In this document: piece by piece, positions 4,191 through 8,253 of the stretch
Layout of the letters: each line of letters starts with the position of its first letter
How positions within the stretch are numbered: position 1 is the stretch's first letter
IMG/VR virus record: IMGVR_UViG_3300044858_006691
Coordinates: 1-51,395 of that record
Direction: 5' to 3' (one strand)
Source of the DNA: a virus
Length of the DNA: 51,395 nucleotides
Made by a program: the position numbers and the translations under genes
Notes under the pieces: model-generated
Told to the model about the DNA's origin: nothing
What the model saw: the letters and a program-made list of their open reading frames with translations, nothing else
Databases searched by the model: none

Positions 4191-4760
4191 TCATTGTGGC
4201 GCATCAGGCGGATTTTGTGCCTGCAGCATTCGGAAAACGGCGATGTTCTCAGTGGCTGCCCGGGCGTTCGCTTGCTGTGCGCGGGCGGAGGTATGGTGAC
4301 ACGCAAGTATCCGTGCCCGGGTGATCGTGGACAAGAAAACGTGCGCTTTGCGCGCGGCCGAGCCAACCAAGACGATGGCTTCGAGTCTCGGTAAGGCGGC
4401 AAGCAGCTGCGGCAGATACGCCATGCCTCGACGGACGTCCTCGCCGGTCGCTGCACGAATCGATGCGCAATCAGGCGTGCCGAGGTACCAGGGCACAATG
4501 TTCCACACGGCAATCTCCCCACGCTGGACACCCGCCTCCTCCAACTGTCGTTTGAAGTTGCAGGCGGATGGGTCGGGGTTATCAAAGGAGATTTTTCCAG
4601 TTTTCAATGCCTGAGGACCTGGCGCCTCCAGCAGGAAAAGAAACTTCGCCTGCTCGTTGCCATTCAACGGGTCGAATCCGGGCACCGCCTCGGGTTCGCC
4701 AAGGTCAGACCGGATCTTGCTGACGAACTGCTCCAGAGCCCCAGTCATTGGGGTACTCAC
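4191..4760 (-). CDS. uracil-DNA glycosylase superfamily protein
   Basis: The 189 residues carry the hallmarks of the UDG-like fold: FLFLLEAPGPQ (about 40-50) at the position of motif A, the NIVPW core strand (87-91), and HHTSAR (155-160), which matches the HPS-type motif B that holds the flipped base. Family members remove uracil or act on other damaged bases; the substrate here is unknown. The GTG start overlaps the stop of the upstream regulator by 4 nt (GTGA), so the two genes form an operon. An ATG at codon 5 is an alternative start. It could be a host gene or element cargo. Confidence 0.75.
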   Translation of the reverse strand: MSTPMTGALEQFVSKIRSDLGEPEAVPGFDPLNGNEQAKFLFLLEAPGPQALKTGKISFDNPDPSACNFKRQLEEAGVQRGEIAVWNIVPWYLGTPDCASIRAATGEDVRRGMAYLPQLLAALPRLEAIVLVGSAARKAHVFLSTITRARILACHHTSARAQQANARAATENIAVFRMLQAQNPPDAPQ

Positions 4761-5083: not shown

Positions 5084-5123
5084 ATCGTAGTATGACCCTC
5101 AATAGATAGAGGAGCACTACGAT
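5084..5123 (+). promoter_or_regulatory. stem-loop covering the integrase ribosome site and start
   Basis: ATCGTAGT (5084-5091) pairs perfectly with ACTACGAT (5116-5123). The right arm includes the first two bases of the int start codon, and the 24-nt loop contains its GAGGAG Shine-Dalgarno (5109-5114). In mRNA this would place the start codon in a helix and could restrain translation of the integrase. Confidence 0.5.
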
Positions 5124-6315
5124 GCCAGCACAAGCGTTGACGACCGAATTCCTGGCCACGCTGCCAGGTCGCGAGCCTGCCTCCGGGGCTGTGAGTTACT
5201 TCGATACGGAGATCAAGGGCTTCCTGCTGGAGCATCGCGCCAGTGGCGGGGCGACCTTCTATTTCCGCTACCGCGATGCGGCCGGCAAGGTGCGGCTGAA
5301 CCGGATTGGCCGGGCTGATGAGATTTCGGTGTCGGACGCCCGGGCCAAGGCGCACAAGATGAAGCAGATGGTCACCGAGGGTGGCGACCCAAAGGTGGAG
5401 AGCCACCGCTTCAAGGATGTGCCGACCTTCGGGGATTTCGTGGCCGAGCGTTACCTCCCCTACGCCAAGACCCGCAAGCGCAGCTGGGAGACGGACGAGA
5501 CGATGCTGCGCAACCATCTGCTGCCGGTGTTTGCCGAGTTCCGGATGAACCGGATCACCCGCTCCGATGTGGTGGCCTTCCACCACGCGGTGTTCGAGAA
5601 GGGCTACGCGGCGGGCACCTGCAACCGGATGATCGTGCTGATGAAGTTCATCTACAACTGCGCGATCCGCTGGGACATCCTGCCGCCCAAGAGTAACCCT
5701 TGTGATGGCGTCGAGCCCTTCGAGGACCACGGTGCGCGGGAGCGGTATCTGACCACCGACGAGGTGCAGCGGCTGTTTGATGAACTCGACACCAACCGCA
5801 ATGTGCAGGTGGGCCAGGTGATCCGGCTGCTGCTGTACACCGGTGCCCGCAAGCGCGAGATCCTGGATGCGCGGTGGGACGAGATCGATTTCAACCGGCG
5901 GATGCTGACGGTGCCGGCGGCGCGCTCGAAGTCGAAGAAGCCGCGTCACATTCCGCTGTCGGACGCGGCAGTGGAGTTGCTGCTGTCGCTGCCCCGGCAG
6001 GAGGACATTCCCTGGGTGTTCTTCAACCCGAAGACCAAGAAGCCACCGGTGTCGATCTTCTACGCCTGGGACTCGATCCGCAAAAAGGTCGGGCTGGAAG
6101 AGGTACGGCTGCACGACCTGCGCCACAGCTACGCCAGTTTCCTGGTCAATGCCGGGCGGTCGCTGTACGAGGTGCAGAAGCTCCTCGGCCACCACGATCC
6201 CAAGGTGACGATGCGCTACGCGCATCTGTCACCGCAGGCGATGCTCGAGGCGGTCAATGTGGTGGGGAACGTCGTGGGGCGGCGGCCGGTCGCAGCCAAC
6301 ACCGGCGCACCTTAG
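5122..6315 (+). CDS. int: phage tyrosine-type site-specific integrase
   Basis: This 397-residue tyrosine recombinase catalyses phage integration and excision. The N-terminal ~95 residues match the DUF4102-like arm-binding region (YFDTEIKGFLLE...FYFRYRDAAGK). A core-binding SAM-like domain follows (about 100-205), then the catalytic domain with R243 (TGARKREI), the H331-x-x-R334 box (HDLRHSYAS), H357 (LLGHHD) and nucleophile Y366 (MRYAHLS). All catalytic residues are present, so it should be active. The start has GAGGAG 7 nt upstream. It is on the opposite strand from nearly all phage genes and marks the element edge. Confidence 0.95.
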   Translation: MPAQALTTEFLATLPGREPASGAVSYFDTEIKGFLLEHRASGGATFYFRYRDAAGKVRLNRIGRADEISVSDARAKAHKMKQMVTEGGDPKVESHRFKDVPTFGDFVAERYLPYAKTRKRSWETDETMLRNHLLPVFAEFRMNRITRSDVVAFHHAVFEKGYAAGTCNRMIVLMKFIYNCAIRWDILPPKSNPCDGVEPFEDHGARERYLTTDEVQRLFDELDTNRNVQVGQVIRLLLYTGARKREILDARWDEIDFNRRMLTVPAARSKSKKPRHIPLSDAAVELLLSLPRQEDIPWVFFNPKTKKPPVSIFYAWDSIRKKVGLEEVRLHDLRHSYASFLVNAGRSLYEVQKLLGHHDPKVTMRYAHLSPQAMLEAVNVVGNVVGRRPVAANTGAP

Positions 6316-6322
6316 GTGGCGG

Positions 6323-6811
6323 CTATGGCGTGACCTGCTGGCCCGCCGCATCAGCGCGGAAGTAGCTGTCCCAAAATTTCAGCGCCTCATCGAACAATTC
6401 GTTCAATGGGCGCTGCTCCCCTCCCTCCAAGGTCACGACGTACTCAGCTGGATGTTCGGAAACAGGACCACCTGGGCCGAAGTAGAACGTTGCCCCCAGC
6501 ATCTCCACATCCGTAGCCATCACATTCCCTTGCGGCCTGGTCATTCGAGCGTGCTTGTACAGCGTGGTGATGTCGTGCATCACCCCCAAGGCCGGGCACT
6601 GCTGTCGCAAGGTAGCTTGAAGATCGGACTTCTGCTGGCGCTGCGGATTCAAGCGTGGGTCCTCGAAGATCCAGTCGATCAGGTGCCACAGCGACGCCGC
6701 CAAGTTGAAGGCTTCCCTGGCCGTTGGATGCTGGCGGTAGTGCAGCGCGTTCGGGAGCACCACCTCCTGCCAGTATTGCGCCGGCGACTCGATGCCCAGT
6801 ATCGATGCCAT
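6323..6811 (-). CDS. unknown partner of the HEPN/Abi-like protein
   Basis: A protein of 162 residues with no motif I can name. It is rich in Trp, His and aromatic residues early on (YWQEVVLPNALHYRQ, LWHLIDWIFED). Its ATG at 6811 shares one base with the upstream stop (TGATG), so it is translationally coupled to the Abi-like gene. The tight coupling and position beside the integrase suggest a two-component defence or toxin-antitoxin-like cassette in which this could be the antitoxin, sensor or second effector. That assignment is inference. A GTG at 6814 is an alternative start. Confidence 0.6.
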   Translation of the reverse strand: MASILGIESPAQYWQEVVLPNALHYRQHPTAREAFNLAASLWHLIDWIFEDPRLNPQRQQKSDLQATLRQQCPALGVMHDITTLYKHARMTRPQGNVMATDVEMLGATFYFGPGGPVSEHPAEYVVTLEGGEQRPLNELFDEALKFWDSYFRADAAGQQVTP

Positions 6812-7527
6812 CACACCGCCTTGATGTTGGGCATGCCACCTGGGCCGGCCGCGTGGATGCTGTGGAAGCGATCCAGCAGACTGTGCAAGCGGGCGATATC
6901 GGGATTCAACCAGAGGAGCCAGGTTTCCGACTCCCTGACCAATGCCGGCAAGTTGGGCCAGTGCCAGACAGGTTCATGGTGGAACACCCGGTTACGCAGG
7001 GTGCGCAACTGTGCCGCATAAGGAGACTGATCTTTTCGGGTGCGCAGCTTGCGGGGCGCGTTGCCGAAAATCTTCGGCGCCATGACTGGCCAGAGAACCC
7101 GACTGCGCTCGTAACGAACATCCAGCAAGCTGGTCCAGAACCCAAACGTCAACTCCGCCACCACGCGCCCGGGGGTCGGACTCAGCCGGTGACGAGCGAT
7201 CTTTTGCTTGGCCTCCAGAACCTTGGAGGCATCCCGCTGATCCAGCCACGCGTCGTCGTACCAGTCCTGTCGCTGGAAATGCTGGCTGAGCACCTGATGG
7301 AACCGATTGCGCAACGTGATTTCACTCAGGTTGAGCAAGGGATACAGACTCTCACACAGTGCGATGTTCCAGAGGTAGAGCGCCACGGCCAAGTCACGGT
7401 CACCGCCCGCGTGGTTCAGGTAAGGCGCCAAGCGCTCGGGCGCGAAGGCTGCCTCGAGCTCCGACCAGGTGATCGTCGTGCCCGAGGGGGTCGGTGCTGC
7501 TTGGCTGCCGGAGCCTGTTTGTTGCAT
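6811..7527 (-). CDS. Abi-like abortive-infection protein with HEPN RNase motif
   Basis: The 238 residues match the Abi-like (Abi_2/AbiD-F type) family. The family region runs from LYLWNIALCESLYPLLNLSEITLRN-type helices (about 50-78) through VAELTFGFWTSLL (about 123-135) to LRNRVFHHEPVW (about 177-188). The last part contains the HEPN ribonuclease signature R178-x4-H183 (RNRVFH), with an extra His at 184. Proteins of this family stop phage growth, probably by cleaving RNA in infected cells. It is located directly after the integrase on the opposite strand, as cargo defence genes often are. GAGAGGG precedes the ATG. Confidence 0.85.
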   Translation of the reverse strand: MQQTGSGSQAAPTPSGTTITWSELEAAFAPERLAPYLNHAGGDRDLAVALYLWNIALCESLYPLLNLSEITLRNRFHQVLSQHFQRQDWYDDAWLDQRDASKVLEAKQKIARHRLSPTPGRVVAELTFGFWTSLLDVRYERSRVLWPVMAPKIFGNAPRKLRTRKDQSPYAAQLRTLRNRVFHHEPVWHWPNLPALVRESETWLLWLNPDIARLHSLLDRFHSIHAAGPGGMPNIKAV

Positions 7528-7742
7528 GGATTGCCCTCTCTACCTCGCCGTCAAGGCACAGCGGGGACTGGCAATCGGTGGCGGAGGTGTGTTATATTTC
7601 GTCTGCAGTCCCCGGGCTATTCCTCTCCCAGTCTCCAATGAGTCTGGTGATGAACCCGGGGTTAGTCTTTTCTGGGGTCGGAAAATCACAAATCCGTCCC
7701 CTGTCCAAGCCGTCATTTTACCGGCGCGCCCCACTACAAAGC
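7528..7742. other. intergenic region, no gene seen
   Basis: Between the Abi-like gene and the terminator of the late operon I see no coding sequence with a ribosome site. It should hold the promoter of the Abi-like/partner operon; an AT-rich TATAAC on the minus strand near 7590-7600 is a possible -10, without a clear -35. Confidence 0.35.
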
Positions 7743-7790
7743 AAAAATCCCCCGACCCCACCACCGGCGAAGGCAGTGAGATCGGGGGAT
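7743..7790 (-). terminator. terminator of the phage late operon
   Basis: ATCCCCCGA (7747-7755) pairs perfectly with TCGGGGGAT (7782-7790). On the minus strand five Ts follow the stem. It lies about 35 bp beyond the last lysis gene and would end the long right-to-left structural transcript, insulating the Abi-like cassette. Confidence 0.85.
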
Positions 7791-7824
7791 CGTCGTTTCA
7801 GGTTGTCGTGTTCGGCGGGACGGA

Positions 7825-8253
7825 TCAGCGGACCGGCCCTCGCCACTTGTCGAAGCTGCGCGCCCCGGTGTAGCCCAGATACCCGGCACCGAACAGCCAC
7901 CACAGGCTCTCGGGAACCGCACCCAGCAGCTTGTTCAGGTTCTCCGCTGCCTGGAAAACGTGGGTCGGCCACCAGATGCCGATGATGGCGCCCATCACGC
8001 ACAGCAAGATCACGCCGTAGATCACGTACAGGAAGGTCGGCCGCGCCCGGCTGGTCCAAGGGTCGGGCGAGTTGGCTTCGGCCAGGATCGCCGAGAGACT
8101 TGTCTGCATCTCTTGCAGTGCCAACTGCCCCTCGGCCTGCAGCAACGCGAGCTTGGCTTTTTCCCGCTCTGCCGGGTCCGGCACCAGGCGGTCGATCAGG
8201 CGACTTCCGGCATCGAGCAGACCCGGAGCCAAGGTGGTGAGTAACGGAGTCAT
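7825..8253 (-). CDS. holin of the 3-TM (HOLIN_3TMs) family
   Basis: The 142-residue product starts MTPLLTTLAPGLLDAGS. It has a charged coiled region (about 20-60), the RARPTF motif typical of this family at about 75, then two clear hydrophobic helices (FLYVIYGVILLCVMGAIIGIW; LWWLFGAGYLGYTGA) and a short basic tail. Holins of this type permeabilise the inner membrane to time lysis. The ATG at 8253 overlaps the endolysin stop by 4 nt. A longer upstream frame is composition noise, since it is the out-of-frame lysozyme region. Confidence 0.85.
   Translation of the reverse strand: MTPLLTTLAPGLLDAGSRLIDRLVPDPAEREKAKLALLQAEGQLALQEMQTSLSAILAEANSPDPWTSRARPTFLYVIYGVILLCVMGAIIGIWWPTHVFQAAENLNKLLGAVPESLWWLFGAGYLGYTGARSFDKWRGPVR

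Follow-up and report, generated by a model that had tools for sequence, protein, structure and literature searches.

Layout of the locus between the lysis genes and the integrase

The window (the whole stretch of 51,395 nucleotides that was analysed) is itself a virus record, and the two genes considered here, an Abi-like gene and the gene immediately downstream of it, lie on its minus strand between the stop codon of the integrase gene at 6315 and the intrinsic terminator at 7746–7791, which is the placement between integrase and late terminator given in the first-pass annotation. Both open reading frames described there are present, and they overlap as TGATG. The features of the locus are as follows:

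5122–6315, plus strand: tyrosine integrase (Pfam PF00589, E 1.9e-30), one flank of the cargo slot, convergent with the downstream gene
6323–6814, minus strand: downstream gene, 163 aa from a GTG start or 162 aa from the ATG at 6811
6811–7527, minus strand: Abi-like gene, 238 aa, predicted AbiD/AbiF-like (PD-T4-5-type) HEPN protein with the motif R178-N-x3-H183
7604–7662, minus strand: conserved hairpin 5′ of the Abi-like gene
7746–7791, minus strand: intrinsic terminator of the lysis genes, a strong hairpin behind the holin gene
7825–8241, minus strand: holin with three transmembrane segments (Pfam PF11351, E 8.6e-24), the second flank of the cargo slot

On the other side of the integrase, a gene for a uracil-DNA glycosylase superfamily protein (4191–4760, minus strand) overlaps that of an HTH regulator.

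The Abi-like gene and the hairpin upstream of it

Judged by its sequence and its predicted structure, the Abi-like gene belongs to the AbiD/AbiF-like HEPN group, with a conserved motif and an AbiF-type helical fold. In profile searches the protein matched the PADLOC model PD-T4-5 (PDLC04038) with an E-value of 1.8e-18, a match that covers residues 48–189 only and includes the region of the HEPN motif, and it matched Pfam PF07751 (Abi_2) with an E-value of 0.0048 and 17.6 bits, below the curated cut-off of 25.6 bits. The best fold match of the predicted model (pLDDT 90) was PbAbiF bound to its ncRNA (8vz6), with a Z-score of 13.2 over 204 residues at about 15% identity, and the next match scored 4.9. 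The HEPN RNase motif that had been claimed from the letters is present as R178-N-R-V-F-H183, and because R178, N179, R180, H183, H184 and E185 are invariant among 19 divergent homologues, it is unlikely to have arisen by chance. The spacing of the arginine and the histidine is the same as in PbAbiF and in AbiF-Cd of C. difficile, where the structurally aligned residues are R210/H215 and R202/H207, respectively, and the R210/H215 double mutant of PbAbiF is inactive (PMC12373285). Moreover, the gene is under purifying selection in all comparisons between phages (NG86 w 0.07–0.08), and w stays at about 0.08 whether the downstream gene is present or not. Homologues are also found outside phages, with tblastn matches in 1,091 plasmid records; a gene of the downstream family was absent from the three plasmid neighbourhoods that were viewed.

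PD-T4-5 itself is a plasmid-borne gene of E. coli that provides abortive defence and was described as a distant relative of AbiF/D (PMC9519451); it resembles the present gene in being a single gene on a mobile element and differs in size (238 aa here against a model of 309 positions) and in setting, phage cargo here and a plasmid there. AbiF/AbiD (Abi_2) proteins such as PbAbiF and AbiF-Cd share the fold, the R-x4-H spacing and the position by prophage lysis genes, and for Abi_2 genes a location downstream of the lysis module of phages was already reported (PMC12373285). The present gene is set apart from these systems by the low identity to PbAbiF, by the Abi_2 score under the cut-off, and by the RF03085 motif (the AbiF RNA motif, an RNA antitoxin), which was not found upstream of the Abi-like gene at E-values up to 10, nor in the relatives that were scanned. 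Nevertheless, because of the PD-T4-5 match, the PbAbiF fold, the spacing of the catalytic motif and the published Abi_2 and PD-T4-5 precedents, we regard the Abi-like gene as an already known kind of gene.

Upstream of the coding sequence, 112 nt at 7585–7696 differ from phage L008 by one mismatch (an identical run of 111 nt), whereas the Abi-like coding sequences of the two phages differ at 56 of 717 positions. A 55-nt hairpin (folding z −3.8) is kept in six phages (the window, L007, L008, L240, L037 and L026), which carry two unrelated cargo types with diverging flanks, and the substitutions in L026 preserve the pairing of the stem. In L026 and L037 the same hairpin stands directly behind an unrelated gene of 387–388 aa and reads as the terminator of that gene, which is the simpler role there. 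The hairpin at 7604–7662 is possibly a relic of a terminator, a regulatory element or an ncRNA. An attP function is unlikely, because the hairpin is absent from sister phages whose integrases are 97–99% identical.

In known AbiF systems the partner of the protein is an upstream RNA. By analogy with AbiF-Cd/RCd22 and PbAbiF, an ncRNA made from the structured region that precedes the Abi-like gene might bind and silence the protein here as well. The closest solved fold being an AbiF–ncRNA complex, the near-identity of the 112-nt block beside a diverged coding sequence and the stability of the hairpin are in favour of such control; but RF03085 went undetected in the window and the scanned relatives, the hairpin reads as a terminator behind an unrelated gene, and recent local recombination could equally have produced the upstream identity. 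We consider RNA control rather unlikely. It refines, and overlaps with, the reading that we prefer, a single-gene abortive-infection RNase, which is compatible with more than one way of silencing.

The downstream gene and its relation to the Abi-like gene

As the first-pass annotation had stated, the downstream protein is of no known family: it has no match in Pfam, NCBIfam, PADLOC or PHROGs. Its gene is under purifying selection (NG86 w 0.10–0.27), and relatives come from 39 genomes of bacteria and an archaeon. In an alignment of 21 sequences of the family, H44, D47, W48, L76, D81, K87, H88 and W148 are invariant, so that by its sequence the protein is a member of a widespread, unnamed HxxDW...DxxxxxKH family. 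The predicted model is mainly helical. Its best matches at a second look are HEPN toxins (Z 8.0, 7.5 and 7.3), and because hemerythrins score close behind (Z 6.8; Foldseek E > 1), an HEPN-like fold is only suggestive. The family lacks R-x4-6-H and conserves D..KH, and the expected position of the arginine is occupied by alanine in most relatives and by threonine in the window, so any such HEPN-like protein would be without the catalytic arginine. A profile–profile comparison with the Abi-like family gave no link, a sequence search of solved structures with the downstream family returned only artefacts of the coiled-coil type, and a viral fold library gave nothing for the downstream protein.

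The two genes had been proposed to form a partner-dependent Abi-like system, and the comparison with related loci argues against this. Four known virus contigs besides the window carry the same Abi-like gene. The first (IMGVR 3300044948_000961) matches the window without a difference over 1,560 bp. In L002/L007 the downstream gene carries an internal stop codon, and in L008 it is replaced after the first codons, with a remnant of the start codon left; the Abi-like gene is intact in both. The fourth contig ends inside the Abi-like gene. Of the three other phages with a complete locus, two thus have an inactivated downstream gene, the remaining one being identical to the window, and the intact pair is seen only in the window and that identical record. 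The downstream gene also occurs behind other modules: in four sister phages (L003, L004 (=L042), L022 and L033) it comes after an operon of TIGR04255, HTH and 283-aa genes, to which it is joined as TAATG, and in L158 (a Comamonadaceae MAG) it comes after a module of an ATPase and a 168-aa protein, which brings the different cargo modules that it accompanies to three.

Beyond the phage group of the window the two families were never found adjacent in the loci checked. With flanks of 1.5–4 kb (shorter at contig ends), the HMM of the downstream family had no match beside 34 other phage Abi-like loci, three plasmid loci or the genome loci from the PD-T4-5 search, and the HMM of the Abi family had none beside downstream-family loci found outside the phage group of the window. 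In a set of 399 genomes from one bacterial order, the downstream family was present in 7 and PD-T4-5 in 14; both occurred in 2, never on the same contig. Because the pairing is lost in sister phages and absent elsewhere in the loci examined, the proposed partnership is not supported; both genes are constrained, and they are real but separable. On these sequence comparisons the downstream gene is not a dedicated partner of the putative Abi-like RNase but a separate passenger gene. An antitoxin role is disfavoured, because intact Abi-like genes persist without it.

A two-gene toxin–antitoxin or partner-dependent Abi system, in which the downstream protein would bind the HEPN RNase and restrain or activate it, is accordingly improbable. 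The TGATG coupling, the constraint on both genes and the position of some downstream-family genes beside restriction and other defence genes (at most 9 of 53 neighbours match PADLOC, a count that has no baseline) would fit such a system, and heterodimerisation is conceivable because the downstream protein is possibly HEPN-like. However, two phages with an intact and constrained Abi-like gene have a disrupted or deleted downstream gene, sister phages carry the downstream gene behind two unrelated modules, and the two genes are not co-located outside the phage group of the window in the loci and genomes searched. HEPN-MNT (type VII) toxin–antitoxin pairs are similar in that an HEPN gene adjoins a small coupled gene; here, in contrast, the downstream protein has no MNT match in the libraries, its predicted fold is mainly helical and the pairing is not conserved. 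Gene overlap by itself does not define a two-gene system. It is about equally improbable that the proteins of the downstream family are portable HEPN-like modulators without catalytic activity, able to join several unrelated defence modules (the AbiF-like RNase, TIGR04255-HTH and the ATPase) and to act within the slot as a common regulator or immunity protein.

An exchangeable cargo slot and its present content

Comparison with related phages that share the holin and the integrase shows that, for most of the other cargo variants, homology on the lysis side breaks off at about 7738, immediately beyond the terminator (BLAST breakpoints). At least six other cargos occupy the slot in sister phages, several of them from known defence or toxin–antitoxin families: AbiEi/AbiEii; RES with a KAP ATPase and AbiEii; an AAA ATPase with RloB (AbiL-like); ImmA/IrrE (RmrA-like) with a PIN-like protein; a pair of 387 and 124 aa; the TIGR04255-HTH-283 aa operon; and an ATPase module. 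Nearly identical phages thus show a sharp-bordered slot in which defence and toxin–antitoxin modules are swapped, and from these alignments an interchangeable order of holin terminator, cargo and integrase is well supported. The accessory position and likely defence role suggested at first reading agree with this.

The reading that we consider probable is that the slot currently holds one abortive-infection effector of the AbiD/AbiF HEPN group, a single-gene AbiF-like RNase that is possibly RNA-controlled, together with an independent passenger gene. The Abi-like protein would most likely be a homodimer in which the paired R178/H183 residues form the RNase site. In the lysogen it would be silent, perhaps because it is little expressed or because an RNA from the 5′ hairpin region restrains it, and infection by another phage would lead to RNA cleavage, by which the cell would be stopped or killed. 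The downstream gene would be passed on together with the integrase side of the slot, would become linked to any cargo that recombination brings in upstream, and would not be a required component of the RNase. Against this reading, the TGATG overlap and the purifying selection on the downstream gene would be compatible as well with a functional pair in the lineage of the window, the Abi_2 score is below the cut-off and RF03085 was not found; moreover, just four further phage contigs with the Abi-like gene are known, of which one has the same sequence as the window and one breaks off inside the gene. Decayed or neutral cargo without a defence role is very unlikely: the downstream gene is broken in sister phages and a promoter consensus scan gave no match at the locus, but w of the Abi-like gene is 0.07–0.08 over several phages and the slot is repeatedly filled with intact defence or toxin–antitoxin genes.

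Some of the cargo to which the slot draws attention has been less studied, including the unnamed HxxDW...KH family and the TIGR04255-HTH-283 aa operon (L003:1693–3989, also in L013–L015 and L243–L252), whose three genes are conserved together on chromosomes as well as plasmids. Searches of Pfam, NCBIfam and PADLOC gave no match for the 283-aa protein, and TIGR04255 is not mentioned in the literature searched; the operon is a candidate for an undescribed mobile defence or toxin–antitoxin operon. The pair of 387–388 and 124–130 aa (L026:6595–8134 and L037), with weak PADLOC matches to PDC-M32A and PD-T4-10_A, is possibly an undescribed two-gene cargo. In L158 and in IMGVR_UViG_3300045074_000028 (L029, L032), a single contig carries two units of lysis genes, cargo and integrase in tandem, and in L158 one of the integrases is truncated; cargo may accumulate via recombination between homologous flanks.
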